Below are positions 1 to 23,322 of a DNA stretch of 23,322 nt, piece after piece. Positions within the stretch are counted from its first letter, which is position 1, and every line of letters begins with the position of its first letter. The DNA lies in the IMG/VR virus record IMGVR_UViG_3300020424_000030, positions 1 to 23,322 of that record. One strand, written 5' to 3'. The stretch comes from a virus. The position numbers were made by a program, and so were the translations under genes. Under the pieces are notes generated by a model. That model was not told the DNA's origin and searched no databases. It was given only the letters and a program-made list of their open reading frames with translations.

Positions 1-84
1 CCACATTACATTCAAGATGTGGAAGAAGTTGAACAAGTTCTTACAGCAAAACAATTTAGGGAACTTAACAACTTCAAGAAATAG
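1..84 (+). CDS. 3' end of an unidentified upstream gene (partial)
   Basis: Frame 1 is open from the first base and ends at TAG 82-84, giving 27 C-terminal residues that are charged (EEVEQVLTAKQFRELNNFKK at the end). Ten bases after the stop begins a strong intrinsic terminator, which is what one expects at the end of a real gene. Too little is visible to name the product. It lies on the same strand as the recombination genes and so probably belongs to an early or replication block to the left of the window. An alternative reading in frame 2 (from ATG 17) runs through the terminator into the serine recombinase and is less likely. Confidence 0.6.
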   Translation, partial: PHYIQDVEEVEQVLTAKQFRELNNFKK

Positions 85-93
85 GATGCAAAG

Positions 94-119
94 AAGGGTG
101 GCTAAGTGCCACCCTTTTT
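94..119 (+). terminator. Rho-independent terminator
   Basis: A perfect 9-bp stem, AAGGGTGGC pairing with GCCACCCTT, has a 5-nt loop (TAAGT). The right arm runs into five T's at 115-119. It sits 9 bases after the stop of the upstream partial gene on the same strand, so it should end the transcript entering from the left. The next gene starts only 17 bases after the T-tract. Confidence 0.85.
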
Positions 120-136
120 GTATGGAAAGGAAAGTT

Positions 137-826
137 ATGAATCAAATTACTTATGGGTTGGTTAGGGGAAGTACCAACAAGCAAGATGTATCACATCAGA
201 TACAAAAGATAAAAGAATATTATCCAAATGTAAAAGATTTTTTTATTGAAGATGGTGTAAGTGGAACACTACCAAGGGAACTTAGACCTACCTTCCAACA
301 AGCTATTGCTACTTGTAAGAAAGAAAAGGCAAGGCTTGTATGCACACACCTAGATAGATTGGGTAGGAATGCAAGTGACATTCTAAATTTTTATGAAGAA
401 GAAATACAAAAGGGTAAGATAGATGTGGAAGTAATAGGTTGTCCACTAAACCCTATGACCACACCCATACTTGTAGGTGTAGGTAGCATTGAAAGATATT
501 TGATTAGTGAAAGAACCAAGAGTGCTTTGTCTATGATTAGAAAAGAAATAGAAAGCAATGGTTTCTACATCACAAGGGATGGCAAGAAGATAACATCATT
601 AGGTTCACCAACTTGTAAGAAAGAAATGTCAAAGAAAGGTTTGGCTACAAGAAAAGCTAATGGTGATTTGTTTAAAGATACACACTTACCTTTAGTGCAA
701 AGGCTAAAGGATGAAGGTCTATCACTTAGGGGTATAGCAAAGGAACTAAACCATAGGGGTGTGAAGACCATAAGGGGTAAAGACTTTAATGCTATGCAAG
801 TAAAGATAATACTTGAAGCAGCTTAA
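137..826 (+). CDS. Small serine recombinase (resolvase/invertase type)
   Basis: This 229-aa protein has a serine-recombinase catalytic domain in residues 1 to about 150. It shows the nucleophile motif LVRGSTNKQDVSHQ (Arg10, Ser12), the conserved HLDRLGRNASDI at 71-82, and the ERYLISERT segment at 119-127 that begins the long E helix. Residues about 190-229 (GLSLRGIAKELNHRGV) form a helix-turn-helix-like DNA-binding tail. The length fits resolvases and invertases, not the 450-550 aa large serine integrases. I chose ATG 137 because GGAAAGGAAA lies just upstream; the longer frame from ATG 17 would cross the terminator at 94-119. It breaks and rejoins DNA at specific sites through a 5'-phosphoserine link. 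Whether it integrates, resolves or inverts DNA cannot be told here, and I saw no att-like pair. Confidence 0.9.
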   Translation: MNQITYGLVRGSTNKQDVSHQIQKIKEYYPNVKDFFIEDGVSGTLPRELRPTFQQAIATCKKEKARLVCTHLDRLGRNASDILNFYEEEIQKGKIDVEVIGCPLNPMTTPILVGVGSIERYLISERTKSALSMIRKEIESNGFYITRDGKKITSLGSPTCKKEMSKKGLATRKANGDLFKDTHLPLVQRLKDEGLSLRGIAKELNHRGVKTIRGKDFNAMQVKIILEAA

Positions 827-848
827 AAAATTTTAACAATGAAAGGGG

Positions 849-1010
849 GTGAAGGTTATTAAAACAATCTTGTATTACATAGGCGGTGGCATCCTTGCCA
901 TTGCCTTTATGTTTTTTTTGTGGGTGTCCATATGGTTTTTGTGTGCCTTGGATGACCATTGCTATGAACAAAACACAAACCCAAACTATTATATAGAAAG
1001 GAAAATGTAA
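849..1010 (+). CDS. Small single-membrane-segment protein
   Basis: A 53-aa frame starts at GTG 849 and ends with TAA 1008-1010, which overlaps the ATG of the exonuclease gene by one base (TAATG). Residues about 4-30 form one continuous hydrophobic segment (ILAIAFMFFLWVSIWFLC), followed by a polar, probably exposed tail of about 20 residues. Purines AAAGGGG directly precede the GTG, an unusually short SD spacing. No in-frame ATG comes earlier than residue 21. It fills the gap between recombinase and exonuclease, and the stop-start coupling supports translation. The family is unknown. It could be a small inner-membrane protein of the early operon, perhaps affecting the host or superinfection, but nothing shows this. 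Confidence 0.55.
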   Translation: MKVIKTILYYIGGGILAIAFMFFLWVSIWFLCALDDHCYEQNTNPNYYIERKM

Positions 1011-1960
1011 TGCCAAAGTTAACACTAGATGGCAAAGAGTTAGGGTGCAGTGCCTTACCAACTTTAATACTAGGTAAGCATTTCCAAAACACTAGGCGTT
1101 CTTTATGGGATGAACAGTTCAAAGCTAGTAAAGGTGTTGAACAACTACCTAGAAAAGAAACCTATGCTATGGCAAGGGGTAACATCCTTGAACCTGCAAT
1201 AGCTCAACTTGCTATGTATAACTTTAGAACCTTGTCAGATGCTAAGATGGAACAATGGATTCCAAAGGAAGCTTTCAGAAAACCTGAAGTAAAACTTGGT
1301 GCATCAATTGATTACATCTTACAAGTAGAAGATGGGGTACTACCAATCACCTATGAAGATACTACCATAGATTACTTTGGTAATGTTATTCATGAAATAA
1401 AGAGTGATAAAAACCACCAAGGTTTTCCCCACCTTGAATGGATTCTACAAGTGCAAGGACAAATGTTTTGTAGTGATGTGCATCAAGCAATCATTAGTGT
1501 GTTTGACCAAACAATGAACACCAAACATTATCCTGTCTTGTATGACCCACAGCTAGTAGAACAAATCATTAAAGCTGTTAATGAATTCTGGGATAAGATT
1601 GAAGAAGGTGTGAACTATGATGAAGATGATTCTTCTATCAATGACAACACTGACTCAGTTGACCTAACTACTATGCTTAACAAAACCAATCACAATCTTG
1701 ATGAACTTTGTACTAACTACAACCAGGTCACAAAAGAAATCAATGCACAAAAGAAAACACAATCTGAAATCAAAGGTAAGATTGTTAGTGTAATGAATCA
1801 TCTTAGTGTCAAACGTGGCAGCACAAATCTATTTAATATTGTGAGTGAAGATATAACTAAACATAAAAAGAAGATGGTTGATACAGGGGAAACATATCAA
1901 TCACATTCTTTTAAAATAAAGGAAAGGAAAAGTGATGAGCAAATCAACACAGATAATTAA
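1010..1960 (+). CDS. YqaJ-type (lambda Exo family) 5'-3' exonuclease
   Basis: This 316-aa protein has the PD-(D/E)XK nuclease motifs of the YqaJ/lambda exonuclease family in order. They are the RGNILEP helix (Arg56, Glu61), GASIDYI (Asp101), HEIKSD with the E-x-K pair Glu129 and Lys131, and the glutamine-rich QVQGQM helix (147-152). Such enzymes degrade the 5' strand of linear dsDNA and leave a 3' tail for an annealing protein. The RecT-type partner is the next gene and overlaps by 26 bp, a classic exonuclease/annealase pair. Residues about 215-275 are polar and coiled-coil-like, an extension beyond the nuclease core. The start ATG 1010 has GAAAGGAAA upstream and is coupled to the small membrane-protein gene. 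Likely role: recombination-dependent replication or repair of phage DNA. Confidence 0.9.
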   Translation: MPKLTLDGKELGCSALPTLILGKHFQNTRRSLWDEQFKASKGVEQLPRKETYAMARGNILEPAIAQLAMYNFRTLSDAKMEQWIPKEAFRKPEVKLGASIDYILQVEDGVLPITYEDTTIDYFGNVIHEIKSDKNHQGFPHLEWILQVQGQMFCSDVHQAIISVFDQTMNTKHYPVLYDPQLVEQIIKAVNEFWDKIEEGVNYDEDDSSINDNTDSVDLTTMLNKTNHNLDELCTNYNQVTKEINAQKKTQSEIKGKIVSVMNHLSVKRGSTNLFNIVSEDITKHKKKMVDTGETYQSHSFKIKERKSDEQINTDN

Positions 1961-2897
1961 TCCAGAAAATATGGACCAGCTTCTTGAGTTTGCTAATGCT
2001 ATGTCTAAGTCAGGTCTTGTTCCTAATGACTATCAAGGTAGACCCAACAACATAGTAGTAGCTGTGCAATGGGGAAGTGAAGTAGGTCTTGCACCTATGC
2101 AGGCCCTACAAAATATTTCTGTAATCAATGGGCGTGCTACAGTGTGGGGTGATTCTGCACTAGCATTGATAACATCACACCCAAAGTTTGCGGGTGTGCA
2201 AGAATTCTTTGAAGGTGAAACAGCTGTATGCGTTGTCAAAAGAAAAGTTGGTGATGACATACAAGAAACCCGTAGGGAATTTAGTATTGATATGGCAAAG
2301 AAGGCAGGCTTGTGGGGAAGGAAAGGGCCTTGGACATCTTACCCTAATCGTATGTTACAGATGCGAGCCCGTGGTTTTGCCATAAGGGATGCATTCCCAG
2401 ATGCAATGAAGGGAATGATTACTACTGAAGAAGCTAATGACACACCAAGGGATGACAAGAAACCCCATAAGAAGGGCGAAGACACACCTGAAATAAACAA
2501 TGTGATAGATTCAGTAGCAAAAGAAGTAGAGCCTACACAAGACAATCCTACGACCAGCAATGATGGTGAGCAGTTGACCGAAGGTGAAGTTGTTGTGTCA
2601 CCTACAGAGCAAGTGGATAACAATGATAGAACAAAGGGATTTGTTCTACATATTCCTATGTGTGAGCCAGAATATTTTGACACTCGTGACAAGTGGGTCA
2701 ACAGATATAGGAAGCTTATGTCTATGGTGAAGGAAGGTAAACTACCTGGTAGGGAAAAGATGACCAACCTTAAAAAACTAGAAGAAGAAAATGTTAAGAT
2801 GTTAGATTCTTTTGGTGCGGCTGGTGATGAACTTAGGGAACTACGTGGTAAACTTACAAGGTTGATTGGTGCAGAAAGTGCAGGTCAAAATGAGTAA
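1935..2897 (+). CDS. RecT-type single-strand annealing protein
   Basis: In this 320-aa protein, residues about 10-165 carry the conserved core of a phage RecT-like family: VGLAPMQALQNISVINGRAT (50-69), then WGDSALALI, then GPWTSYPNRMLQMRARG (131-147) and RDAFPDAMKGMITTEEA (151-167). These proteins coat 3' single-stranded tails and anneal complementary strands. Residues 170-240 are acidic and low in complexity, and about 240-320 form a charged helical tail that may be a partner-binding region. I chose ATG 1935 over GTG 1932 because the AAGGAAA upstream is then better spaced. The gene overlaps the exonuclease gene, so the two are probably translated together. The family match is by motif recognition only. 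Confidence 0.82.
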   Translation: MSKSTQIINPENMDQLLEFANAMSKSGLVPNDYQGRPNNIVVAVQWGSEVGLAPMQALQNISVINGRATVWGDSALALITSHPKFAGVQEFFEGETAVCVVKRKVGDDIQETRREFSIDMAKKAGLWGRKGPWTSYPNRMLQMRARGFAIRDAFPDAMKGMITTEEANDTPRDDKKPHKKGEDTPEINNVIDSVAKEVEPTQDNPTTSNDGEQLTEGEVVVSPTEQVDNNDRTKGFVLHIPMCEPEYFDTRDKWVNRYRKLMSMVKEGKLPGREKMTNLKKLEEENVKMLDSFGAAGDELRELRGKLTRLIGAESAGQNE

Positions 2898-3129
2898 GCA
2901 AGGACTAACACCAAGGCAATCTGATATATATAGATTCCTTGTTGCATATCATAAAGAGTATGGTGTGTACCCTAGTATGCGTGAAATAGCAGAAGGTAAG
3001 ATAGAAGGTGAACAAGTAATCACCAAGGTATCTGCTTCATCTGCTGTTAAGCTTACACTAGATAGGTTGGAATCCAGGGGATGGATTCGTAAAGGTAAAC
3101 ATATACCACGTGGCTTGGAAGTTTTGTAA
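2890..3129 (+). CDS. Stand-alone LexA-type winged-helix DNA-binding protein
   Basis: This 79-aa protein matches only the N-terminal DNA-binding domain of LexA. It has LTPRQSDIYRFL (residues 6-17), GVYPSMREIAEG with the recognition-helix region, then a ...AVKLTLDRLESRGWIRKG... wing and the ending RGLEVL. The LexA cleavage site and Ser-Lys peptidase domain are absent, so it should not self-cleave. The start is ATG 2890, eight codons inside a longer frame; the start region overlaps the RecT gene by 8 bp and has GCAGG upstream. It may act as a small repressor or regulator of this operon or of host SOS-type operators. Its place right after the exonuclease/annealase pair favours local control, but the target is unknown. 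Confidence 0.8.
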   Translation: MSKQGLTPRQSDIYRFLVAYHKEYGVYPSMREIAEGKIEGEQVITKVSASSAVKLTLDRLESRGWIRKGKHIPRGLEVL

Positions 3130-3314
3130 TGGCAAAGGAAGAAGAAATAGTTTTCACACCTGAACTTGCCAAAAAATTTCGTGAAGAATATGACAAGGCA
3201 AAAGCTCACGGCAAAGATACATTTGTATTTGAAGGTAAAGGATTCTTTACTGACTATGCAAAGTATCTGCTAGACCATCTAGAAAATGTAGGTATGTTTA
3301 GAGTTCGGCCCTAA
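3129..3314 (+). CDS. Small hypothetical protein, last gene of the rightward operon
   Basis: A 61-aa soluble, highly charged frame starts at ATG 3129, which overlaps the preceding stop by one base (TAATG). That coupling supports it as a real gene. The sequence MAKEEEIVFTPELAKKFREE suggests a helical N-terminus; the middle has aromatic residues (FVFEGKGFFTDYAKYLLDHL). No membrane segment and no family I recognise. Its last 17 bases overlap the 3' end of the lysozyme gene on the opposite strand. Confidence 0.7.
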   Translation: MAKEEEIVFTPELAKKFREEYDKAKAHGKDTFVFEGKGFFTDYAKYLLDHLENVGMFRVRP

Positions 3315-3747
3315 ATATATCTGCAATTCTTTGGGCTCGCTGACCAACTTGGCGAGCCCATTTACTATTCAAGGCTTCATCCGCCGCCGTTGTTCCGTCA
3401 TTGTTTTCTAATGCAGCCAACATATTCTGAAACTTTAGAAGGTTAGGCAACCCAAGATTATAAACCATATTAAGTATTTGTTCTTGTACTATGATAGGCT
3501 TTTCTTTTATCCAAGGTAAGCTTTGTTCTAATTCATTCCACATATCTTGTACTGTATTCTTTAATAAAAACACTGCTTCATTTTCTGTTAGCCCACCACC
3601 TGGAACTTGCTTGTCAATAAGTTTTCCATAACCTATTGTCCAATATCCTAGGTGGTCTTGGTATGCAACGTGCCTACCATTTTCTATAACACAACCTTCA
3701 TCCCTAGTGATTGCGGCAAAGAATCTATCGTGGTCTATGTGGTCCAT
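3298..3747 (-). CDS. T4-type endolysin (lysozyme, GH24)
   Basis: This 149-aa protein has the glycoside hydrolase 24 catalytic pattern: ITRDEGCVI with Glu17, YQDHLGYWTIGYGK with Asp31 and Thr37. These correspond to Glu11, Asp20 and Thr26 of T4 lysozyme. It cleaves the sugar backbone of peptidoglycan to release progeny. There is no signal peptide or SAR-type N-terminal anchor, so it should depend on a holin for access to the wall; a 3TM-type holin lies four genes upstream in the same transcript. The start ATG overlaps the stop of the preceding gene (TAATG). The C-terminal region has the usual WARQVGQRAQRI pattern. It is the last gene of the leftward block and overlaps the oppositely oriented neighbour by 17 bp. 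Confidence 0.93.
   Translation of the reverse strand: MDHIDHDRFFAAITRDEGCVIENGRHVAYQDHLGYWTIGYGKLIDKQVPGGGLTENEAVFLLKNTVQDMWNELEQSLPWIKEKPIIVQEQILNMVYNLGLPNLLKFQNMLAALENNDGTTAADEALNSKWARQVGQRAQRIADIFRAEL
3332..3360. terminator. Possible terminator hairpin inside the lysozyme 3' end
   Basis: A perfect 9-bp GC-rich inverted repeat (TGGGCTCGC / GCGAGCCCA) with an 11-nt loop lies 18 bases past the stop of the rightward operon, within lysozyme codons. On the + strand it is followed only by TTT, and on the - strand by no T-tract, so it is not a canonical intrinsic terminator. Its position at the tail-to-tail junction makes a role in stopping or processing the rightward transcript plausible. Confidence 0.4.
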
Positions 3748-3941
3748 TATGCTGTCGCTTTCTTGCCATACTTCTTCTTCATCTTCTTACGAAGTGTAGA
3801 CTTAGCAGTCTTGGCAGAATCAACAAAAGCTTGTTGAGTAGGCGCACCTTCGTCACCAGGCTTACGCATCTTTTCACCACTACCCTTTGCAATTCGTTTA
3901 CGCTTGGCGTGGATATTATAATACAAACCTTTCTTAGCCAT
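3747..3941 (-). CDS. Small basic conserved phage protein
   Basis: A 64-aa, strongly basic protein begins MAKKGLYYNIHAKRKRIAKG, continues SGEKMRKPGDEGAPTQQAF, and ends in a Lys-rich tail (STLRKKMKKKYGKK). I recognise this N-terminal pattern as recurring in marine phage genomes, always without assigned function. Its charge suggests nucleic-acid or virion binding. It ends by overlapping the lysozyme start (TAATG). Its own start lies 3 bases after the stop of another small basic gene, with AAAGGGGG upstream. No membrane segment. Confidence 0.8.
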   Translation of the reverse strand: MAKKGLYYNIHAKRKRIAKGSGEKMRKPGDEGAPTQQAFVDSAKTAKSTLRKKMKKKYGKKATA

Positions 3942-3943
3942 CC

Positions 3944-4072
3944 TTAGCCCCCTTTCTTTTTACCATATTTTTCTTTCATTTTTTTTTGCAAAGCTTTTGA
4001 CCCTGCTTTCTTGGTAAGTTTTTTCTTAGGTCTACCTACCTTTGAACCATAAGTTCCTGGACCCATTGGCAT
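3944..4072 (-). CDS. 42-aa basic protein with a VGRPKKK motif
   Basis: This frame is short but well supported: a near-perfect AAAGGAGG lies 6 bases before the ATG at 4072, and the stop is 2 bases before the next gene. The product begins MPMGPGTYGSKVGRPKKKLT and ends KMKEKYGKKKGG. About 40% of residues are Lys or Arg. The GRP core flanked by basic residues resembles an AT-hook, although the motif lacks the usual leading Arg. Its tail (KKMKEKYGKKK) resembles the tail of the next gene downstream (KKMKKKYGKK), so the two may be related by duplication. Function unknown; possibly DNA- or capsid-associated. Confidence 0.75.
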   Translation of the reverse strand: MPMGPGTYGSKVGRPKKKLTKKAGSKALQKKMKEKYGKKKGG

Positions 4073-4086
4073 AGCTGCCTCCTTTC

Positions 4087-4473
4087 TTATTTATTTATCT
4101 TCTTACTATCGGTGCCTTTGTACTTGTCATAGCTCCGCATTCCCGAAATGCCTAGCATTCCGAACATCAACGGCATCATTACAGACATATCAGCTTGTGG
4201 TATAGTAACTCCAAAGCCTGCCATAATAGGCGATACCATATAGTTGATTCCCATTGATAGCCCGCATATCCATCCAATCAATGGACGCCAGGAACTTTGA
4301 AACCAGTTTCCTTTGGCATCAGCTTTCAATACTTCTATCTGTTGCAATGCTATTTGCTGCCCATGTTTTTCTGCCATAGTCGCAATCTCATGAGCCAATC
4401 TATTCTTTTGGTCTTTGTCTTCTATAAACTTACCTAGCAATTTTGTTGCTGGGCCTATTAAAGATGTGAGCAT
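4087..4473 (-). CDS. Holin of the 3TM type
   Basis: This 128-aa protein has a polar, helical N-terminal half (residues 1-55) followed by the family hallmark GNWFQSSWRPLIGWICGLS (55-73). Hydrophobic segments lie at about 63-85 and 97-112, with the conserved end PLMFGMLGISGMRSYDKYKG (101-120). This architecture matches the '3TMs holin' family, small membrane proteins that permeabilise the inner membrane so that endolysin reaches peptidoglycan. The start at 4473 has AGGGGG upstream. The lysozyme, which has no export signal, lies downstream in the same transcript. The family identification is by pattern; direct evidence of lysis timing is not visible. Confidence 0.85.
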   Translation of the reverse strand: MLTSLIGPATKLLGKFIEDKDQKNRLAHEIATMAEKHGQQIALQQIEVLKADAKGNWFQSSWRPLIGWICGLSMGINYMVSPIMAGFGVTIPQADMSVMMPLMFGMLGISGMRSYDKYKGTDSKKINK

Positions 4474-4503
4474 TTTACCCCCTAAAAATTTTTGTAGTTA
4501 ATA

Positions 4504-4815
4504 TCATTTCTTACCATGCATTATTGCTGCACTCCCCATATACGCACCAACAATACCAGTGCCTGCAATGTAGAAAAGATTACTAATCCCTGCCAACGCT
4601 TCTACACGTTCTGTACTTACAAAGAAACAAGCAGCAGTAAATACACCCATACCTATTAGTGATGCAGTTGCCATCCTTCTTTGCGCCCTTTGTTTTCTAA
4701 GGTCATGTTGTAGTTCTGCTGTTTGCATTTCAACGTCTGAAACTACACCATCCTTATTTAAATCAAGCTCATTAAATTTAGAATCTGTTTGTAATTTTTT
4801 TTGTAGACTTGCCAT
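4504..4815 (-). CDS. EF-hand-containing membrane protein
   Basis: Residues 18-29 of this 103-aa protein, DLNKDGVVSDVE, form a complete EF-hand calcium-binding loop (Asp1, Asn3, Asp5, Gly6, Val8, Glu12). A basic helix (RKQRAQRRM) follows, then two hydrophobic segments at about 48-67 and 73-98. By charge, the loop could be cytoplasmic. The gene lies between the holin and another membrane-protein gene; its ATG overlaps the upstream stop (TAATG). A role in lysis, perhaps as holin partner or antiholin, or as a calcium-responsive membrane factor, is inference. The loop could also serve as a structural motif without binding calcium. Confidence 0.75.
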   Translation of the reverse strand: MASLQKKLQTDSKFNELDLNKDGVVSDVEMQTAELQHDLRKQRAQRRMATASLIGMGVFTAACFFVSTERVEALAGISNLFYIAGTGIVGAYMGSAAIMHGKK

Positions 4816-5279: not shown

Positions 5280-5285
5280 TTAACA

Positions 5286-6085: not shown

Positions 6086-8152
6086 TTATGGGTTAATCTT
6101 ATGCCAGAACCTAAAGTTTGTATTAGTATTGGTTCCGTGTTGATAATAATAGTTGTTGCCAATACCCCACAATGAATTGTCACTAAACCTAGCAAAGTGT
6201 GTCCAGTAACCTGAGTAGTAATGACCTATGGAATATATATCTTCAAACCTAATATCATCAGAACCTAACCACCAAGAGGATTGCCCTGTCAATGTATGTT
6301 GGTTACCACTTGGGTACATGTATGCATTAGTAAAACTTACTGCACTTGTGTTAGCTTGGTAGTCATATGGTGCTGACATATAACCCCATATCCATAGACG
6401 CCCTTGCTTATCTAATCCCCACCAACCAGGTGCATTATATCCACTGGTTCTAAATGGGAAACAAGCTATCATTTCGTTTCTAGGAAACAATACATTGTTA
6501 GTTTGAATCACACCATCAGCAGATGATGTAACTGTTTTAAGCCTATTACTTCCAAAGGTAGTTGTTTGTGGGTCAAGCACTGCACTGTTAGCAGTCGTGT
6601 TGCCTTGCATCAATTGTCCGTGACCGTTGTAGCCAAAAACGTTAAATGACATACCTGTCCTAGATGCAATGGTGTAGGTGTACATATCACCTGGGCCATC
6701 AACACCTGAAGGGTTGCCCTTCCAAGCTACTACACTTGTAGTTGACGCATTGCCACATACTTGTATTGCAGCATAATTTTCTGAACCACCTATTTGAACC
6801 CAAGCTGATTGTGCAGTTGTGTTTCCTTGGCCCAATGCACCATTGGATGCTAGTCCAATTCCATATAGGTTTCCTGATGTGTCAATGTAATACGCATTAG
6901 CATTAATATTACCATTATAATAGTAAGTATTGTTACAAAGTATTTGAGCACAGTTTGTAACAGCTGTCATTTGTGCTGGTGAAGTTCTTGCTGCACCTAG
7001 TGATGATATACTATTAGTATTAGAACCTGTGTGATAAGCATTACCATTACTATCTACAAACATAGTATCATTATATCCTGCAGATATTTGTACAATGTTT
7101 GATAAGCCAGAAATTTTTGTAGGGGTAGTAGCATTGTTTGTGTTGCCTAACCCATGTGAGCCACTGCCTCCCCAACCAAATGCATAGACATCACCATTGT
7201 GTGTAATACAAAAGTAATGTGTGTTACCCATTCCCTGGTAACCTTTAGCATCATTAGTTGCAACACAACTAACTTCCATAGAAACAGAATTTGTTGTAGC
7301 ATCAGGGCCAAAGTAAGGGTTTCTAACTAATTGGAATCTATCAACTGTATCGCCTAAGCCCAACTGGCCCGAGCCGTTTTCGCCCCCGACCCATATGTTG
7401 CCTTTGTTAGTAAGTAAGACAGTAGAATGTGTGTTGAACCATTGTCTTACAAAGTATTCGTCTGCAGCCATACCACCAAATTCCATTGATAGCTGTGCAT
7501 AATGGTGACTCATTTCAAATGAAACAGCATTAGTTCCTGAGCCTAAACCAGGGTGCATATAGCCTGCGGTCATAGGTTCGTGTTTGCTATTAAGCCAATG
7601 TGCTGAAGATGTTGTACAAATCATTTGGTCTGTGTCTCTTTTGACAGGGCCACATCTACCATTAATCATTCCATCTTGTGGAATCCAATCTGCATTTGCA
7701 CCAGACTTACCATTGTATCGAGCTAACCAGGGGTACTTACCATCAGTGCCACCAAGGGTACTGTTGTTAGAGTTAGCATATAAGGGTATATTAGTTGATA
7801 GAATGTCTTGTCCTTCAAATCCACCAACAGTTCCAAAGCCTAATGTGTTTGCACTTGTAACCTTTACAGCAGAACCAACATTACCTACAGGTACTCTAAT
7901 AGCATTGTTACCATCATGGCTAAGTAAGTCACCCGCTGTTGTTAATGGTAGTGTACCATCTGCCATCAAGTTCCAATGTGTAGTGTTACTATTGCTTGGA
8001 GCTCCTGCATTTGTTCCTGTTTTGCTAGTTGTGTTAACATAAATCCAAGAAGAACCAGCGTGTGAAACCACATCATCTGCTTCATAAGTATTGGAATTAC
8101 TAAACGCCCCACGCCAGTGAAACTTAATTTTTCCTAAATCAACGGTTGCCAT
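6086..8152 (-). CDS. Tail fibre with RCC1-like repeat propeller
   Basis: This 688-aa protein has an N-terminal module at about 10-65 (FHWRGAFSNSNTYEADDVVS ... SNTTHWNLMADG), resembling the small carbohydrate-binding or linker repeats of phage fibres. About 250-688 holds roughly seven RCC1-type repeats, each a 'G-x-hydrophobic-aromatic-x-x-G' strand with GQLGLGN-like turns: GNIWVGGENGSGQLGLGD (251), GDVYAFGWGGSGSHGLGN (320), GNAYHTGSN (370), GNLYGIGLASNGALGQGN (427), FNVFGYNGHGQLMQGN (503), GRLWIWGY (584), NSLWGIGN (659). This predicts a seven-bladed beta-propeller, likely the receptor-binding head. AAGGGGG lies before ATG 8152. It directly follows the T7-type fibre-base gene, so the two probably form one adhesion apparatus. 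Binding target unknown. Confidence 0.82.
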   Translation of the reverse strand: MATVDLGKIKFHWRGAFSNSNTYEADDVVSHAGSSWIYVNTTSKTGTNAGAPSNSNTTHWNLMADGTLPLTTAGDLLSHDGNNAIRVPVGNVGSAVKVTSANTLGFGTVGGFEGQDILSTNIPLYANSNNSTLGGTDGKYPWLARYNGKSGANADWIPQDGMINGRCGPVKRDTDQMICTTSSAHWLNSKHEPMTAGYMHPGLGSGTNAVSFEMSHHYAQLSMEFGGMAADEYFVRQWFNTHSTVLLTNKGNIWVGGENGSGQLGLGDTVDRFQLVRNPYFGPDATTNSVSMEVSCVATNDAKGYQGMGNTHYFCITHNGDVYAFGWGGSGSHGLGNTNNATTPTKISGLSNIVQISAGYNDTMFVDSNGNAYHTGSNTNSISSLGAARTSPAQMTAVTNCAQILCNNTYYYNGNINANAYYIDTSGNLYGIGLASNGALGQGNTTAQSAWVQIGGSENYAAIQVCGNASTTSVVAWKGNPSGVDGPGDMYTYTIASRTGMSFNVFGYNGHGQLMQGNTTANSAVLDPQTTTFGSNRLKTVTSSADGVIQTNNVLFPRNEMIACFPFRTSGYNAPGWWGLDKQGRLWIWGYMSAPYDYQANTSAVSFTNAYMYPSGNQHTLTGQSSWWLGSDDIRFEDIYSIGHYYSGYWTHFARFSDNSLWGIGNNYYYQHGTNTNTNFRFWHKINP

Positions 8153-16288: not shown

Positions 16289-16291
16289 ATA

Positions 16292-18283
16292 TCACTCAAA
16301 AAAGTTAGGTAAAATATTATTAAACTTAGTCTTCTGGGCAGCATCACTTTGTATGGCTATAAGTTCTGCCATCATTTCCCTAAGAAATTTTTTTCTTTCT
16401 TGACTTGTAGATGTTGCATTGATTTCTGTTTGTACTGTTCTTTTAAACATTTCAAAATTAGCAAAGCCTTGGTTTGTTAATCTATTGGCTAACTTGTCCA
16501 ATGCATCTACAGAAGCTTCTTTTAGAATCTTGTCTACAACGTCATTCTTAAATTTTTCTGCACTAAAATCTTGTCTTTTTTTAGCTGTAATCAAAGCAGA
16601 TTCAATACGCCCATAGGTTTGAAGATTTGCCCTAGAAACAGATTGTGCATTAATAAGTAGATTCGCAGGCATTTTTAATGTAGCTCTTACAGCTGTTAAT
16701 ATTTCTTGTGATTCCTTATCACCTTTTGCCCGTAGCTTTTCATAATAAAATTGCAAATCCTTGTAGGTAAGTTTTCCATCTTTAAAATAACCAAGCAGCT
16801 TACTATAAGTTGTTGTTACAAAACCTGGTTCATTTATTAAATCTGCATCCAACAATGATTTTGTTGCGCCATCACTTTCTAATTTTATGTTTTCAAATGT
16901 TTCATCACCTTGCAGGTCAAATGTAGGGCCTACAATATCTTCCATTTCTTGTAGTGCTTTAGCACCTGCTTCCCTATCAACCTTATATATTTCAGTTATA
17001 AGGCTTCTAATCTTTGAAGTTTTAACTGTAGAATCCATTTCTTTATCAAGAATTGTGTCTATGATTGCTGCAGAGTTTACTTCAACTACATTAGTCTTAG
17101 CCTTTGTATATACATTCATAGCATTGGTTTCTGCAGTGCCACTTTTGATAACACTATCAACCATAAAATTTCTAACTTCTTCCAACCTTGTGCCGTCTTT
17201 TCTATAATACAAAAGTACATTCTGTACTTCCCTAGACATTTTACTAAAGGCAGAATTTTCTTTTGTGTATGTACCTTTTAGAACTTCAGTTATAGCAGTG
17301 CTAATGGCATTTCTTTGTACTGCCTGTCCTTGGGCTGTAGATGATGATGATAATATGTTTTTAATAATTACACCCTTTGCACCTGTAAGTATCGCTTCTT
17401 TCCATTCATCATCCATTTTACTAATGTATGATTCACTCATACGATAATTTATTGCTAATGCTTTTTTGTTTGCAATAAGTGTGTCTGTTATTTTTTTTGT
17501 TGTTGGGTTGTCTTTTTTGTTTTGTTCACGTTCATCTTCTGTGCCAAGAACCAATTTTCCATCTACAATTTTATAAGGGTTACCCATAGTGAAAAAAGTT
17601 TCTGCAAGCTCTTTGTCTGCATCCCAGGAACTAGCAAAGGCTGCCTTTTGCATTTCTAAAAATTCTGCATTATGTTTTACAGTGATGCTGTGTAGTTCAC
17701 TATAGGTATGCAAACCCATTTCTGCACGGAACTTTCTTGCATATGCACCATCTTCATCATCAAACACACCTGCAAAACCACTAACAATATTTTCTAATTC
17801 TGTTTTAATTACATCAGGTTGGTTCTGTGGCAGCATAGGATTCTTATCTGCACGAGCTTTTATTTCTAATATTTTCTTTTTTGCAAGTGTAGTTAAATCT
17901 AAGTATGTTTGGTCTAAGGCAGCGTTTTTAGCTTTTGTGCCAAAGGTAGAAAAACTATCGCCTATACCAGCAAGTTCTTTTCCCATTTCAGAAGTAGCTT
18001 GTTTTATAGCTTTACTTCTTATTTCTTTTTCTTCTTTAGTTCCTTTAGGTAAATTGTATGCATCTTCTAGCTGCTGCATATTAGGTGCATTTTCCATCCC
18101 ATATTCTACACCTTCAACCTTGGCAATATTGTTTGCAGCATTAATCGCAAAGGTAGTCATTTTGTCCATAGCTACTTGTAGCTGTCTATAGCCTGCAGCT
18201 TGTTCTTGCTGTTCTGCAAAATCAATTCTAGGTATTCTTATACCCCTAAGTCTTCTTTGATATGTTTCTATACGTTGTGCCAT
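16292..18283 (-). CDS. Internal virion protein, T7 gp15-like position
   Basis: This 663-aa, predominantly helical and highly charged protein begins MAQRIETYQRRLRGIRIPRI at ATG 18283, one base after the upstream stop. The longer frame to 18307 overlaps that gene and is less likely. Helical stretches with many Ala, Lys and Glu run throughout (for example DLTTLAKKKILEIKARADKN). No membrane segment or catalytic motif is seen. The size (T7 gp15 is 747 aa) and place between the gp14-like and the giant polyvalent protein support an ejection-tube component. Sequence similarity to gp15 itself is not visible to me, so the call rests on position and helicity. Confidence 0.75.
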   Translation of the reverse strand: MAQRIETYQRRLRGIRIPRIDFAEQQEQAAGYRQLQVAMDKMTTFAINAANNIAKVEGVEYGMENAPNMQQLEDAYNLPKGTKEEKEIRSKAIKQATSEMGKELAGIGDSFSTFGTKAKNAALDQTYLDLTTLAKKKILEIKARADKNPMLPQNQPDVIKTELENIVSGFAGVFDDEDGAYARKFRAEMGLHTYSELHSITVKHNAEFLEMQKAAFASSWDADKELAETFFTMGNPYKIVDGKLVLGTEDEREQNKKDNPTTKKITDTLIANKKALAINYRMSESYISKMDDEWKEAILTGAKGVIIKNILSSSSTAQGQAVQRNAISTAITEVLKGTYTKENSAFSKMSREVQNVLLYYRKDGTRLEEVRNFMVDSVIKSGTAETNAMNVYTKAKTNVVEVNSAAIIDTILDKEMDSTVKTSKIRSLITEIYKVDREAGAKALQEMEDIVGPTFDLQGDETFENIKLESDGATKSLLDADLINEPGFVTTTYSKLLGYFKDGKLTYKDLQFYYEKLRAKGDKESQEILTAVRATLKMPANLLINAQSVSRANLQTYGRIESALITAKKRQDFSAEKFKNDVVDKILKEASVDALDKLANRLTNQGFANFEMFKRTVQTEINATSTSQERKKFLREMMAELIAIQSDAAQKTKFNNILPNFFE

Positions 18284-18284
18284 A

Positions 18285-18980
18285 TTAAGCAACTTTCCTA
18301 AAATCAATACCTAGCATTTCATAGTTCACTGCTTTGTAGAAATGTTTGCCATAGAACACAGCATTAGGATAGAAGACTTCTACTTCATCTGCCATTACAC
18401 CTACATAACGACTTGGGTTACCTAGATAACTAAATTCATATAGATTTAAATTAGTGCGTGTATCTACACCTACTTTAACAATATCTTCTTTTAGACGCCT
18501 ATCACTTGTAAAACCTGCTGTTCCATATACAGAACCAGCACTAACAACACCTTCAAATACACTACCTAGTGCAGCAACCTTACCAGCTCTTTCAGCCGCT
18601 TTACCTGCACGTCTATAGTTTTCTGCCTGGTAGTTAGCCATTTGCAAGGCGATAGTTGCGTTGTCACGGGCAACAGTAAAGTCTTTGGTAGAATCATACC
18701 TAATACCTTTTTGTATTACATCTACGGGGCTTCCCGCTTCTGCAAAGTTATACCCGCCCGCACCACCTTTAGCCATTGCACTAGCCATCAATCGGTTTCT
18801 TTCCCTTAATACTTCAACACCTTGTTCCTTGTATTCTACTGCTTCACGTCTGCCTTGAATCTTTGCTTCTTCTGCTTTGGCATAATAAAGATTTCTTCTA
18901 GCCTTACCTTCATTGATTTGACCTATGCCTTTTACTACTGAACCAACTACGGCTACTGCTGCTAGTGCTGGACCGCCCAT
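18285..18980 (-). CDS. gp14-like internal virion protein with C-terminal S74/chaperone-type domain
   Basis: In this 231-aa protein, residues 1-22 are small and hydrophobic (GGPALAAVAVVGSVVKGIG), then a long Ala/Glu/Arg helix runs to about 140 (EAKIQGRREAVEYKEQGVEV, AENYRRAGKAAERAGKVAAL). This is the layout of gp14-type internal core proteins. Residues 159-228 match the peptidase S74 / intramolecular chaperone domain: SDRRLKEDIVKVG (Ser159, Lys164 as the usual dyad), LNLYEFSYLG, RYVGVMADEV, YPNAV, then KAVNYEMLGI. In tail spikes this domain trimerises the fibre and then cleaves itself off; here it would sit on an internal protein. It overlaps the upstream gene stop by one base (TAATG). Confidence 0.85.
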   Translation of the reverse strand: MGGPALAAVAVVGSVVKGIGQINEGKARRNLYYAKAEEAKIQGRREAVEYKEQGVEVLRERNRLMASAMAKGGAGGYNFAEAGSPVDVIQKGIRYDSTKDFTVARDNATIALQMANYQAENYRRAGKAAERAGKVAALGSVFEGVVSAGSVYGTAGFTSDRRLKEDIVKVGVDTRTNLNLYEFSYLGNPSRYVGVMADEVEVFYPNAVFYGKHFYKAVNYEMLGIDFRKVA

Positions 18981-21034
18981 TATGAACCCCCTGTTGAAAC
19001 ACTATAGTCTAGTGAAAGTAATGTTAAGAAGACTGGTTGTGTTTGTGTGATTGATATTATTGCATCTGTGGAATATCCTAATATTCCTTTTTGTCTTTTA
19101 GTTCCTGTAAATGTAGAAACACCGCCACTACCTGGTATAGGAAGTGTGGTGAGGTTGACTTCTGTTCCATTTATAGCAAGGTTTTGTGACCTATATAAAA
19201 TAGGATTCACATCAACTATTCTTTTCTTTTGTGCTTGAACACTAGGAACACCAGGTAATTGCAATTCTACAGGCATTGTTTCTACTACAACTTCATAGTC
19301 TAAGCCTGCTTCTACAAAGCTTGTTGGTGTGTCTGCAGTGGTTATATTACCACTAGATACAACAGAACTAGCATCAACTATATTATCCCTTATAACAGCT
19401 GCAGTTTTACCTTCTATATGTGAATGACCACCTATTGTTGTTCCACTAAAACCAGATAGGGTTTGCACAGCAGAATCGGTTGTGAAGTCATCATCAAATA
19501 CTTCTACATAGTATTTTACTTGACCATTTATAGTTCTTTTGACTGTTACATAAATGGTATCTAAATCCACTGCCACATCTGTAAAAGAACCATCTGTTTG
19601 TAAAAAACTTGGTGCTACAACATTTTGTTGTTTGTTTAACATAAAAGCAGCTATACCACCTGTGAATCCAGTAGATGCAGAACGGTAACCAGTTGAGCTT
19701 TCACCATTAACAATCAACAACAAGTCACCTTCTGTTGTGTCTGTTGCAGGTCTAAGTGACATTCTTATAGGGTCAACTATCATATGTGATGAAAGCAAAG
19801 AAATATTGTTAGAAACATAGGAAAGTTCTACATCACTAAACAACATTTCCCTAAGTGTCTTACCTTGTCTTTGTATAAATAATGTGCCTGTTTCCGCCGC
19901 TGTAGGTCTTATACCTTCCTTTGACCCACGTTTTGTTGCAGATTTTAGAACAATGTTATTTGGTGTGATTGGTTCTAAGTCAGTCTGAGGTAGAAAAAAC
20001 TCAGCTCCAGTTGTGAAGACCTGAAGGTCTCTACCACTACGCATACCTGTGATTGCGTTTAAACTATCGGTTTGTAAGGTAACTTTTATCGCATCATCAT
20101 CCAAACCTTCTGCTGGTTTAAAATTAAATATATCTGCAACCTTAGATGCAAATAATGTAGATGGTAAAGCATAGCTGCCGCCAAAGTATAATCGTCCTTC
20201 GTGGAATGTTACTGTTCTGGGCCAACCCCTTGTGTTTGACCAGGCATCTTCAAACCCTTCTTCTAATGTCCAATCACCTGCAGCAATAGCATCTGTGCTA
20301 AAAAAAGGCACTTCTGCTTGTGCATCTACTTTTGTAGCACTTGTAAACTTAACAATCCTAGCTCTACCAAAACCATTATTAACATCTATAAATTGGTCTA
20401 CCATTGCCTGGGTAAAGAAACTAGCACCAGCTGTAAGGGTGATAGTATCATCTGTTCCACTAGGTGTTATGGTTGTTGTGCCTTGTGTGTTAGACTTTGT
20501 AAATTGATGTTTAGGTGGTGTTAGCTGTATAAAACTAGCAGACCATATGTTATCTGCTATACCCCTTTTTAATTGTATAGGGTTAAAGTTTTCGTGTACT
20601 AAAAGCAATGTATCTGCAGATTGTGCAAAATTTAATTTAGTAATATCAAAGTTAGTTACACCTGTTAGTGCGCCCACATTAAAATCTAAGTAAGGCACAC
20701 CGCCATTGTTTATATTATCAATAACTTGTTGGTTTTGATAAAACACAAATCTAATTGTGGTTTGTGTATTAAAACCTATAGCAGCTATCATAAAGGTTTG
20801 TGTTGTGCTAAACTCAAAAGGTATTAGAACAGTACCATTAGCTGCACCAAAGCTTGTAATGTCTTGTATAAATTTTAATCCTGGTCTTCTACTAAAGCCA
20901 CCTTGTGGTTCAAACAAAACATTCTTGGCCCTAGATGCACCTGCATAATATTGTTGTATATCAATTCTACCCCTAATTAAGGGGTCAATTTCACCAACAG
21001 TAAAACTAGCTTGATACCTTTTGACTGAGCTCAC
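18980..21034 (-). CDS. Tail tubular protein B / nozzle (T7 gp12-like)
   Basis: The N-terminus of this 684-aa protein has the podovirus nozzle signature: FTVGEIDPLIRGRIDIQQYY (11-30), RAKNVLFEPQGGFSRRPGLK (35-54), then a beta-rich body with TRGWPRTVTFHEGRLYFGGS and the ATKRGSKEGIRPTAAETGTL segment. These proteins form the hexameric tube below the adaptor, hold DNA in place and open on adsorption. The length is a little under that of T7 gp12 (794 aa). The start codon is GTG at 21034, which overlaps the adaptor stop by 4 bases (GTGA), so the two are translationally coupled. It has no membrane segment and is rich in Thr, Ser and Asp. Confidence 0.9.
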   Translation of the reverse strand: MSSVKRYQASFTVGEIDPLIRGRIDIQQYYAGASRAKNVLFEPQGGFSRRPGLKFIQDITSFGAANGTVLIPFEFSTTQTFMIAAIGFNTQTTIRFVFYQNQQVIDNINNGGVPYLDFNVGALTGVTNFDITKLNFAQSADTLLLVHENFNPIQLKRGIADNIWSASFIQLTPPKHQFTKSNTQGTTTITPSGTDDTITLTAGASFFTQAMVDQFIDVNNGFGRARIVKFTSATKVDAQAEVPFFSTDAIAAGDWTLEEGFEDAWSNTRGWPRTVTFHEGRLYFGGSYALPSTLFASKVADIFNFKPAEGLDDDAIKVTLQTDSLNAITGMRSGRDLQVFTTGAEFFLPQTDLEPITPNNIVLKSATKRGSKEGIRPTAAETGTLFIQRQGKTLREMLFSDVELSYVSNNISLLSSHMIVDPIRMSLRPATDTTEGDLLLIVNGESSTGYRSASTGFTGGIAAFMLNKQQNVVAPSFLQTDGSFTDVAVDLDTIYVTVKRTINGQVKYYVEVFDDDFTTDSAVQTLSGFSGTTIGGHSHIEGKTAAVIRDNIVDASSVVSSGNITTADTPTSFVEAGLDYEVVVETMPVELQLPGVPSVQAQKKRIVDVNPILYRSQNLAINGTEVNLTTLPIPGSGGVSTFTGTKRQKGILGYSTDAIISITQTQPVFLTLLSLDYSVSTGGS

Positions 21035-21663
21035 GACCTAACATCAGTAAGCATATACTGCCCTATAATAGAATTGTTTTGTCCTGATGCATCTATATTC
21101 ATAGCTTGTCTTAGGTAGCCGCCACGACCACTTTCAGAATCCATACCTATAGCAACTTGTCGCCAATATTGTGACTTGGTAACTTGGTCTGTAATAACTT
21201 CTGCTAAATGCCAGGCAACTTGGTAAACTAATAGCTGCACAAAATACTTTGGCATAGCACCTTCACTAATTGCTTTTTGATAATCTATATGTATTTCGGT
21301 AGCTTCTGTCATTAGAACTTGATAGCCACCTGTTGATTGCCCTAATTCAAAACTTGTAATTAGTGGCCCACCTGGTGATGATGTTGTTCTTACTGCACGT
21401 GGAACATTATTTATCATATCATTAGGCATACGATATTGATAAGTCCATTCATTTTGTGGGGTAGCAGAATCCCGTACTAGCTGTACTTTTGCTAAAGTAA
21501 ATGACCAAGGGTATAAACCAAAGGTCAGCATCTTAATTTCTTCATACATTTGACTACATGCATTAGCTTGTAGTGTTCCATCATTCATTGATGTAAAGCC
21601 ATCACTACCTAGAAGTAATAAAGCTTTGTTACAAATTGTTACATCAGTGTCACCTTGTGCCAT
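21031..21663 (-). CDS. Tail tubular protein A / adaptor (T7 gp11-like)
   Basis: This 210-aa protein has the gp11-type pattern: TICNKALLLLGSDGFTS (9-25), ACSQMYEEIKMLTFGLYPWS (35-54), then FTLAKVQLV. The middle carries W-x-Y-x-Y-R-M-P-N-D (EWTYQYRMPND), typical of this family. It forms a twelve-subunit ring joining portal to nozzle. The length is close to T7 gp11 (196 aa). ATG 21663 has AAGAAGG about 4 bases upstream. The gene stands right after the capsid genes and is coupled to the nozzle gene (GTGA overlap). The hairpin at 21684-21720 lies in its leader. Confidence 0.9.
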   Translation of the reverse strand: MAQGDTDVTICNKALLLLGSDGFTSMNDGTLQANACSQMYEEIKMLTFGLYPWSFTLAKVQLVRDSATPQNEWTYQYRMPNDMINNVPRAVRTTSSPGGPLITSFELGQSTGGYQVLMTEATEIHIDYQKAISEGAMPKYFVQLLVYQVAWHLAEVITDQVTKSQYWRQVAIGMDSESGRGGYLRQAMNIDASGQNNSIIGQYMLTDVRS

Positions 21664-21683
21664 ATAACCTTCTTTCTAGTAGG

Positions 21684-21720
21684 GTGGGGGGTTTTAATTA
21701 CCACAACATATACCCCCCAC
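21684..21720. other. Intergenic hairpin between head and tail genes
   Basis: A perfect 9-bp inverted repeat (GTGGGGGGT / ACCCCCCAC) encloses a 19-nt AT-rich loop, between the stop of the small head protein (21736) and the adaptor start (21663). In the leftward transcript it is followed by CCTACTAG and then the adaptor SD, with no T-tract, so it is not a standard terminator. It may cut expression after the abundant capsid genes or protect the 3' end of their RNA. Confidence 0.5.
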
Positions 21721-21735
21721 ACCACTTTTAAACCA

Positions 21736-22017
21736 TTAGTCAGAATCTGTTTGACTAATAGTTGTGCCATCTGACACATCAACCACAGTACCTGTATTCG
21801 AAACGACTGTGTGTATAGATTGTGTCATGGTTCCTCCTGTAGACCCATTCACAAAAAGAATGTCACCTACAGCAATAGTAGCAGCTACATCATTGAAGTA
21901 GCCTGAAGCTCGAACAGTTGCCTGCGTATCAGTTGTAGTGTACGCAAACATTTGTGGAGCTGTGCCTTTTTTAGACTGTCCACCAATCGGATTCCAGCCA
22001 TCCATAGAAAACGCCAT
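21736..22017 (-). CDS. Small head (decoration-type) protein
   Basis: A 93-aa, beta-rich protein starts MAFSMDGWNPIGGQSKKGTA, then PQMFAYTTTDTQATVRASGYFNDV and TIAVGDILFVNG. The pattern 'MF(A/S)YTT.D...(R/N)ASGYFND.....VGD' is one I associate with small structural proteins following the capsid gene in marine phages. It is probably a head-decoration or head-surface protein, but direct evidence is lacking. It starts 15 bases after the stop of the major capsid gene, with AAGGAG 8 bases before the ATG, so it should be strongly translated. Confidence 0.75.
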   Translation of the reverse strand: MAFSMDGWNPIGGQSKKGTAPQMFAYTTTDTQATVRASGYFNDVAATIAVGDILFVNGSTGGTMTQSIHTVVSNTGTVVDVSDGTTISQTDSD

Positions 22018-22031
22018 ATTAAATACTCCTT

Positions 22032-22889
22032 CTAGCTTTCGTCACAAACAACATCAACAATGCCATCTGTATCGATTGCAGTTGCCGCCATTGAAAGTTT
22101 CGCTGTTACCAGAAAACTCGTCTTTTCTGGCACATAGTTAATTTCAGTGCTTGGGGCCATAGCCACTGCACAACCTACTGCTGACTTATGAAAAGCAAAA
22201 CAGGTACGGTCATTCGTAGCCAATGGTAAGCCTCCTTCGTCGCGGTCACCTATAGAAATAAAGGTGAACCCGAGAACAGAGTTGATTTCCCCATTTACGA
22301 GAGCACGGACATTTTGGTAGTCACCACTAATAGCTCTTTCGTCTGATAGAAGACCTGCGATATTATTCGCATGTGTGACAAAAAATCTATCTGTTGGTGG
22401 TACATTTTTAGCATCTAGAGCTTTCTTAGCTGCAAGAATTTTTCCTACATTAAGATTACTAGCCGCCGCATTTCCTGTGGTCACCACAGTTTTTGCCACG
22501 GTAGAACCAGCTGTGGCTGCATTGATAGCGTCAATGATTATCTGGTCTTGCCTGCGACCAATCGCTGACCCCACTACAGTTGCCAATTCTCTACGCTCGT
22601 CGAAGTTAATTTTAGTCTGCAAAAAGATGTCACTATACTCTGATGCGACAAAATCAGACATACTAACTGACACAGATGTGAACGCTGTATTAAGCGGCAC
22701 CACGTCTGTACCAGGATTTCGCAGGGTTGCCTGTCCTTTTCCAATCTTTGGAAAATTGACTGTATTCCCTACAACACCCGTACGCATTCTACAGACATTT
22801 TGTAGCACGGCATTCCCTTGGTAGGCTTGATGCACTTCGCTATCAAAAAGCTGAACAAACGCTGGGCTTAGATTTGCGGTTGTTGTCAT
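22032..22889 (-). CDS. Major capsid protein
   Basis: In this 285-aa protein, patterns typical of podovirus major capsid proteins are seen: GNTVNFPKIGKGQATLRNPG (41-60), SDFVASEYSDIFLQTKINFD (78-97), RRELATVVGSAIGRRQDQII, then DAINAATAGST and RFFVTHANNIAGLLSD. The fold should be HK97-type. The position between a scaffold-type gene and a small head gene supports this. GGAG lies 8 bases before the ATG. The gene looks less AT-rich than its neighbours, with more C-ending codons, as expected for the most highly expressed virion gene. A 184-bp non-coding leader with inverted repeats precedes it. Confidence 0.92.
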   Translation of the reverse strand: MTTTANLSPAFVQLFDSEVHQAYQGNAVLQNVCRMRTGVVGNTVNFPKIGKGQATLRNPGTDVVPLNTAFTSVSVSMSDFVASEYSDIFLQTKINFDERRELATVVGSAIGRRQDQIIIDAINAATAGSTVAKTVVTTGNAAASNLNVGKILAAKKALDAKNVPPTDRFFVTHANNIAGLLSDERAISGDYQNVRALVNGEINSVLGFTFISIGDRDEGGLPLATNDRTCFAFHKSAVGCAVAMAPSTEINYVPEKTSFLVTAKLSMAATAIDTDGIVDVVCDES

Positions 22890-22967
22890 AAGATAAACTC
22901 CCTAATTTGACAGTTAAGTTAATCGCCATCAGGTTATTGGAATAATCCAGCCTGCACTTCACAATAA

Positions 22968-22995
22968 CGTTTGTGCAAACGGTGTATTTCTACAC
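22968..22995. promoter_or_regulatory. Two abutting hairpins in the capsid leader
   Basis: Read in the leftward RNA, GTGTA-GAAA-TACAC (22995-22982) is followed with no gap by CGTTT-GCAC-AAACG (22981-22968). Each has a 5-bp stem with a tetraloop; the first loop is of the stable GNRA type. The element ends 78 bases before the capsid start. It may be an RNA processing or stabilising element, or the second half may be a DNA operator, since CGTTTGTGCAAACG is an inverted repeat. Confidence 0.45.
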
Positions 22996-23045
22996 GCCAG
23001 ATTAGCTCCCAAAAAAAGAGAGTTATTAATCCCCTTTAAAATACA

Positions 23046-23065
23046 TTACAAACTGCAACTTGTAA
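23046..23065. promoter_or_regulatory. 20-bp inverted repeat after the scaffold gene
   Basis: TTACAA and TTGTAA flank an 8-bp centre. It lies 8 bases downstream of the scaffold stop and about 156 bases before the capsid start in an AT-rich stretch. It could be a protein-binding site controlling an internal promoter for the capsid gene. I could not fit a convincing -35/-10 pair, so the promoter itself is not called. Confidence 0.3.
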
Positions 23066-23073
23066 AACAATTT

Positions 23074-23322
23074 TTAACCAACAGCAGCTTTGTTGCCATA
23101 ATAGTCTTCAAATTCTTTCTGCACATCATTGGTATATTTCATATCATTACCATACCTAGGGTCATTCATTTTGCTTTGTGCATAGCGTTTAAATTCTTCC
23201 TGTGACATTTTAGGGTCAGGTGAAGTAGCAACTGGTATAGGTGTATTGTCACCTGACATACCCCTTAATTTTTGTAGAATCTTTGCACCACCTGCATAGT
23301 CACCAAAACCATAAAGTTCTGC
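23074..23322 (-). CDS. Capsid assembly scaffolding protein, C-terminal part (partial)
   Basis: The frame is open to the right edge of the window, so the N-terminus is missing. The visible 82 residues run from AELYGFGDYAGGAKILQKLR, through MSGDNTPIPVATSPDPKMSQ, to MNDPRYGNDMKYTNDVQKEF and the end. The tail 'EEF..YAQSKMNDPRYG.D...TNDVQKEFEDYYG' matches the C-terminal ends of podovirus scaffold proteins (mDPRY...V...F). Scaffolds direct procapsid assembly and leave before DNA fills the head. The location just upstream of the major capsid gene supports this. The internal ATG at 23259 is probably not the true start, because the reading frame continues through plausible protein sequence. Confidence 0.8.
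   Translation of the reverse strand, partial: AELYGFGDYAGGAKILQKLRGMSGDNTPIPVATSPDPKMSQEEFKRYAQSKMNDPRYGNDMKYTNDVQKEFEDYYGNKAAVG

Follow-up and report, generated by a model that had tools for sequence, protein, structure and literature searches.

Absence of GATC from a marine podovirus contig and its probable origin in host restriction

The tetranucleotide GATC does not occur in IMG/VR record IMGVR_UViG_3300020424_000030, the whole of which (23,322 bases) was analysed and is called the window below. The record is linear, a fragment for which no completeness estimate is given; judged from its sequence, it comes from an uncultured marine podovirus whose distant relatives include Methylophilales phage MEP301. 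The observations reported here are the absence itself, its excess over protein and codon constraints, the presence of GATC at homologous places in relatives, the lineage-specific loss and the continued rejection of new sites. Most probably, the lineage lost its GATC sites because a host Type II restriction enzyme that cuts this word selected against them.

Absence of GATC from the window and very close contigs

A direct count over positions 1-23322 found 0 GATC. A maximal-order Markov model predicted 55.1 sites (z -9.0) and base frequencies predicted 78.4. When synonymous codons were permuted within each of 23 open reading frames of our choice (22,578 bases), so that proteins and per-gene codon usage were preserved, 50.8 +/- 5.0 sites were expected, with a minimum of 37 in 1000 shuffles. 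All twelve 2-kb bins were free of GATC, with 2.7 to 8.0 sites expected per bin. The initial annotation, made by reading the letters, had claimed zero GATC in 23.3 kb against tens expected and had proposed a comparison of 4-mers with a Markov model; the counts bear it out on each of these points. Its further statement that GANTC escapes avoidance is roughly right, that word being mildly low (57 seen, 78 by base frequencies). Clearly, the absence of GATC exceeds what protein and codon constraints allow.

Avoidance of restriction sites by phages is long established, and in the available part of Rusinov et al. (2018, PMC6286503) "site elimination" denotes an observed/expected ratio below 0.1. With the further limit of more than 15 expected sites, GATC in the window (0/55.1, by our own Markov expectation and not their exact statistic) falls among the eliminated sites.

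The count in the complete genome that the initial annotation had also proposed could be reached only through very close contigs, and these were likewise GATC-free. L082 aligned to 14322-22362 at a mean of 94% and is mosaic, with 99% identity in tail tubular protein B but 70%, at the protein level, in part of the gene at 12485-16288. L089 (the same contig as L144) aligned to 1-3514 at 98.3%, and L090 to most of 79-3804 at 97-99%. L145 lies outside the window and matched L089 at 97.6-98.3%. We took these four contigs, which originate from at least three metagenomes, as the same or very close species. Their GATC counts, seen/expected, were 0/17 (L082), 0/29 (L089), 0/22 (L090) and 0/19 (L145). 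Since L089, L090 and L145 run beyond the left end of the window without GATC, the absence is not peculiar to the window fragment.

The window differs from L082, L089 and L090 by 615 substitutions in all. Given how often each base change was observed, these should have left 17.1 GATC present on one side only, and 0 were seen. The same test gave 3 CATG against 20.8 expected. The expectation overshoots for palindromes generally; calibrated on ten others (ratio 0.69), it fell to 11.9 for GATC, with P about 7e-6, and with all fifteen other palindromes (ratio 0.62) to 10.6. The 615 substitutions are not all independent, because L089 and L090 overlap and most come from the mosaic contig L082. These results established that selection continues to remove newly arising GATC sites.

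Timing of the loss and other missing words

The next relatives, about 65-80% identical to the window in aligned pieces, carried GATC at 62-117% of expectation (L077 and L091 are one contig). GATC seen/expected:

L001 31/31; L077 43/48; L083 35/30; L084 68/66
L085 21/24; L086 28/30; L087 73/80; L091 45/68
L092 13/21; L093 37/54; L094 74/102; L147 31/42; L151 25/35

Because the close contigs are purged but the next relatives are not, the purge is assigned to the branch leading to the window species; it was recent and lineage-specific. In a codon alignment with eight relatives, none of 153 GATC was retained in the window (sites were counted per relative, so that a single place in the window may count several times). 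At 96 of the 153, the relative's GATC is one substitution away from the word in the window, the commonest change being GATC to GACC (38/96). Amino acids were unchanged at 82 of the lost sites and changed at 71. In the same alignment, CCGG (0/51) and CGCG (0/9) were not retained either, and the remaining palindromes that had sites were retained at 7-40%, for example TGCA at 82/332.

Within the window, GATC is not the only word that is low; two further palindromes, CATG and CCGG, had escaped the initial annotation. CATG occurred 22 times against 102.6 expected by the Markov model over the whole window (z -10.5) and 50.5 by codon shuffle; CCGG occurred 0 times against 7.3 (z -3.3) and 12.8, respectively. 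AGCT and TGCA were over-represented in the codon shuffle. CATG is missing from one long stretch:

14852-21556, no strand assigned: CATG-free stretch, a gap of 6706 bases between the CATG at 14851 and that at 21557

The length of this gap gave p = 0.013, and the dispersion of CATG among 2-kb bins was not significant (p = 0.11). The lowest non-palindromic words were GAGA/TCTC (8 seen, 41 expected) and CATCG/CGATG (0 seen, 11 expected). GAGA/TCTC is scarce in the nearest relatives as well, and CATCG/CGATG in some of them. Among the next relatives, CATG was low in L083, L084, L093 and L094, and GGCC was almost lost in L084 (1/22) and L093 (0/23).

We further placed the state of each palindrome on a tree of the major capsid protein. 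The tree holds 86 rows, those with at least 55% identity among 101 full-length rows, and was built by a quick method with Shimodaira-Hasegawa-like approximate likelihood ratio (SH-aLRT) support only; words at no more than 10% of expectation were scored as purged and those at 60% or above as normal. For GATC, 30 rows were purged, 47 normal and 9 unscored. Seven changes of state account for this distribution, at least six of them forced by starred branches, versus 23.6-23.8 with shuffled labels. The window belongs to a starred clade of five rows in which no other row is purged. Other palindromes were purged elsewhere on the tree, as follows:

CATG, 4 rows (2 changes)
CCGG, 4 rows (2 changes)
GGCC, 2 rows (2 changes)
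GTAC, 2 rows (2 changes)
TCGA, 7 rows (2 changes)
ACGT, 9 rows (4 changes)

Among scored rows there was no purge of AGCT (0/85), TGCA (0/86) or CTAG (0/83).

The switch in GATC state is also seen between colinear pairs: L068 has 0 and L051 27 over 7.4 kb at 80% identity, L036 has 0 and L011 31 over 11.2 kb at 75%, and L035 has 7 and L023 0 over 4.65 kb at 86%. Within a single locus, L029, GATC is normal in the first 4.5 kb and missing from the final 1.37 kb, a part that shares 99.4% identity with the GATC-free L030; L029 has either recombined recently or been assembled as a chimera.

We surveyed 94 loci, including the window and the close contigs, for words at no more than 5% of expectation. 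This limit was reached in 52 of 1244 palindrome tests and 16 of 10,754 non-palindrome tests, and 40 of the 94 loci had one or more palindromes this low. By the criteria of Rusinov et al., 30 of 984 palindrome tests in 80 family loci were eliminations; they lie in 28 loci, and 23 of them are GATC. GATC was thus eliminated in 23 of 72 testable loci, in 18 of which it was exactly zero. Eliminations amounted to 1 in 123 tests in eight isolates and to 0 in 4885 in Markov-simulated sequences. The family's overall rate is ordinary, near the 3.9% and 7.5% quoted for other datasets in the available part of PMC6286503. What the family adds is the concentration on GATC and the phylogenetic switching of GATC state.

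Host restriction as the probable cause, and its alternatives

The initial annotation had named two possible causes, a GATC-cutting restriction system or avoidance of Dam-type methylation or mismatch-repair marking. Selection as such is upheld by the results above; the restriction half of the proposal is favoured and the other half disfavoured. Orthodox Type II enzymes recognising GATC exist (DpnII, MboI and Sau3AI are names for this specificity), and GATC is palindromic, as is required of their sites. Under restriction, the lineage would have been exposed repeatedly to Type II enzymes of varying specificity. Each unmodified site would be a risk of cutting at entry, presumably by a host enzyme, and would lower survival on infection. 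Sites would then be lost, mostly through silent changes, until none remained; many of the replacements are indeed silent changes of the third base, such as GATC to GACC. The low number of CATG and the missing CCGG may be the record of other enzymes met by the lineage or its ancestors. Restriction is favoured over Dam or mismatch repair because relatives have lost CATG, CCGG, GGCC or GTAC while keeping GATC, and because GATC switches between states again and again along the capsid tree.

GATC is the site of Dam and of MutH, and vibrios are Dam-positive. Phages might therefore shed GATC where host Dam-type methylation leaves methylated or hemimethylated sites that interfere with replication or transcription of the phage or with mismatch repair (through MutH nicking). 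Mild depletion in five Vibrio phages with related capsids (339 of 556 expected GATC, 61%) fits such avoidance, and a 1.6-fold lower GATC frequency in a sea-ice prophage is so read in the available part of PMC12570018. We nevertheless consider it unlikely for the window. It predicts the loss of GATC alone, whereas CATG and CCGG are also low or missing here and sister lineages erased other palindromes instead; moreover, GATC is reduced in the Vibrio phages but not eliminated. A modification-dependent (Type IIM, DpnI-like) enzyme would cut GATC methylated by a methylase of the host or of another phage, and the phage would drop its sites. GATC as a Type IIM site was rarer than expected in each of 46 phages infecting hosts with such enzymes, according to the available part of Rusinov et al. 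(PMC6286503). In the present family, a phage-type Dam gene (PF05869, 1.8e-20, at G027:C1:14398-14811 on the contig of L051) was found in 1 of 50 records, so methylated phage DNA does occur. The adenine methylase families PF02086 and PF01555 were each above cut-off in 0 of the 50 records, many of them fragments, which makes this absence weak evidence. An enzyme of this type alone leaves CATG and CCGG unexplained and needs two partners, and we think it improbable.

The lineage has strong compositional biases (CpG at 0.32 of expectation), and mutation bias or codon usage might be held responsible for the missing GATC. This explanation is scarcely credible and was rejected by the codon shuffle, which never gave fewer than 37 sites; GATA, GATG, GATT, CATC and AATC remain common in the window and conserved against relatives, and the next relatives keep GATC. 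A library or assembly artefact, such as digestion at GATC, would be conceivable in that every close relative comes from a metagenome assembly. It is contradicted by purged and normal family members in one metagenome: 3300020430 holds L090 (0/22) beside L006 (24/30), L083 (35/30) and L094 (74/102). The spread of the close contigs over several metagenomes also speaks against it, and we give an artefact almost no weight.

Several results nevertheless weigh against host restriction as the cause. All 16 non-palindromic losses in the survey contain CG, for which an ordinary palindrome cutter gives no explanation. Intermediate GATC levels (10-60%) occur in 7 of the 72 tested loci. In off-clade controls, 16 loci found through RecT (L095-L110), eliminations made up 6 of 195 tests, all of them CGCG, and the family's 30/984 is no higher. 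The DpnII nuclease family was found in 0 of 14 metagenome-assembled genomes (MAGs) bearing capsid relatives, which need not be hosts, in a search that left aside the MutH/Sau3AI and DpnI families.

These MAGs come from 15 of 18 loci (17 titled MAGs) recovered by aligning the capsid against bacterial genomes; the loci are phage-bearing contigs, and none reveals the host of the window phage. The D12 methylase family was present in 3 of the 14. One phage contig in a MAG of Gammaproteobacteria, L111, had GATC at 0/71, and both the DpnII and D12 families were absent from that MAG.

Restriction-site avoidance is already known, and the window is a fresh instance of it in a family that swaps words. 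As in the cases of Rusinov et al., so far as the available part of that paper goes, a short palindrome with more than 15 expected sites is wholly lost from a small double-stranded DNA phage, and GATC is among the avoided sites. There, host and enzymes are known; here, the loss is placed on one branch with GATC-bearing sisters. In pelagiphage subgroups, depletion of GANTC has been linked to an orphan methylase of Pelagibacter, as the available part of PMC9516812 reports. Those phages are likewise marine podoviruses, and the depletion of a methylation motif in them tracks phage phylogeny, but there the word is GANTC and is depleted, whereas here it is GATC, which is absent, and other palindromes are swapped between lineages. 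A limited literature search found no account of MEP301-like phages losing GATC or switching palindromes.

The different words wholly erased within about 15-30% nucleotide divergence, together with a methyltransferase with strain-level module turnover (below), raise the question whether the missing palindromes of this family are a readable record of host restriction; we hold the two answers in balance. If they are, phage genomes by themselves would disclose which sites the restriction enzymes of uncultured hosts recognise, and on this basis hosts could be matched to phages. The window itself is a clean case, with close contigs all GATC-free, sisters normal and a direct test of continuing selection, and a GATC-cutting system is predicted in its host. 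The family offers a natural series of phylogenetically placed palindrome losses, from which the speed of erasure could be measured and restriction specificities of uncultured marine bacteria guessed.

Genes of the window and methyltransferases of relatives

The left 3.1 kb of the window encode, on the + strand, recombination proteins and a LexA-type DNA-binding protein. From 3.3 kb onwards the genes lie on the - strand, with a lysozyme followed by podovirus structural genes, the last being the major capsid protein. The assigned genes are:

17-826, +: serine recombinase, resolvase N-terminal domain (PF00239, 7.2e-20) and a partial PF07508 match (1e-5, above cut-off, model positions 12-50 of 102)
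1010-1960, +: YqaJ/RecE-like exonuclease (phrog_434, 7.3e-25; PF09588, 9.1e-7)
1932-2897, +: RecT-like single-strand annealing protein (phrog_561, 1.4e-53)
2866-3129, +: small LexA-type DNA-binding protein (PF01726, 4.5e-10)
3298-3747, -: phage lysozyme (PF00959, 4.1e-11)
6086-8152, -: RCC1-repeat protein of the tail region (PF00415, 3.4e-15)
9190-12504, -: internal virion protein (phrog_6651, 1.3e-20)
18980-21034, -: tail tubular protein B (phrog_376, 7.2e-110; 44.4% to MEP301)
21031-21663, -: tail tubular protein A (phrog_394, 6.7e-26)
22032-22889, -: major capsid protein, the basis of the family tree (PF19821, 3.4e-67; 56.5% to MEP301)

The RCC1-repeat protein occupies the position of the tail-fibre genes in related phages. 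As regards lifestyle, the window has the resolvase-type recombinase with its partial PF07508 match; site elimination is strongest in non-temperate phages, according to the available part of Rusinov et al. (PMC6286503).

MEP301, a phage of an OM43 methylotroph (PMC8024684), was the best isolate match, with the identities listed for the capsid and tail tubular protein B and 70.2% for a terminase fragment of the close contig L089. A resolvase and a YqaJ gene are adjacent in both phages. Unlike the window, MEP301 retains 99 of 141 expected GATC, and its host is not transferable to the window phage. For the MEP301-type group, the available part of PMC8024684 sets minima of 25 kb and of 40% of genes in common with MEP301; the window is partial, at 23.3 kb, and the three protein matches, that of L089 included, were 44-70%.

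Beyond the window, a phage C5-cytosine methyltransferase, which may act as an additional defence, is encoded on the close contigs L089, L090 and L145:

L089:2365-3726, -: C5-cytosine methyltransferase (TIGR00675, 2.7e-38, above cut-off; PF00145, 1.5e-43; PCQ and ENV motifs visible)
L145:64-1506, +: homologous C5-cytosine methyltransferase with an extra module relative to L089

PCQ and ENV are motif names in use for this class of enzyme. Multispecific phage C5 methyltransferases of the SPbeta type have several exchangeable target-recognition modules of differing specificity. Homologues 61-68% identical are present in L091, L093 and L094. Their target-recognition part is modular, whole segments differing between relatives; even between L145 and L089, 97.6-98.3% identical in aligned parts, one 28-residue module differs.

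In the first five rows compared, an "LDTEC" module was present in three GATC-keeping relatives and absent from the GATC-free L089 and L090. The idea that loss of a GATC-methylating module had forced the purge was rejected: L145 has the module yet GATC at 0/19, and L147 and L151 have no module and GATC at 31/42 and 25/35. Nor does the presence of PF00145 track the GATC state. Nine of 47 records carry it and both states occur among them, L030, L089 and L090 being purged of GATC and L010, L011, L044, L091, L093 and L094 having it at kept or moderately low levels. The L051 contig with the Dam-type gene keeps GATC at 64/72; its relatives L062 and L068 are GATC-free.

Next to the methyltransferase of L089, a small protein (3717-4151, -) matches the C-terminal DNA-binding part of DnaA (TIGR00362, 3.5e-11, below cut-off). 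Pelagiphage HTVC203P likewise has a gene annotated as DnaA.

Other words are missing from particular relatives. CGCG is nearly or wholly eliminated in six of the 16 off-clade contigs (L104-L108 and L110). CATG is absent from L027 (0/61), as it is from L028 and L033. The 289 CpG of L027 are confined to 8 of the 16 four-letter contexts, 137 of them being CCGG; the contexts with zero counts are CCGA, CCGC, CCGT, GCGC, GCGG, TCGA, TCGG and ACGT. In the AT-rich L051, L055, L056, L058, L059 and L067, several CpG contexts are jointly at zero (ACGG, ACGT, CCGC, CCGG, CCGT, GCGC and GCGG), non-palindromic ones included.

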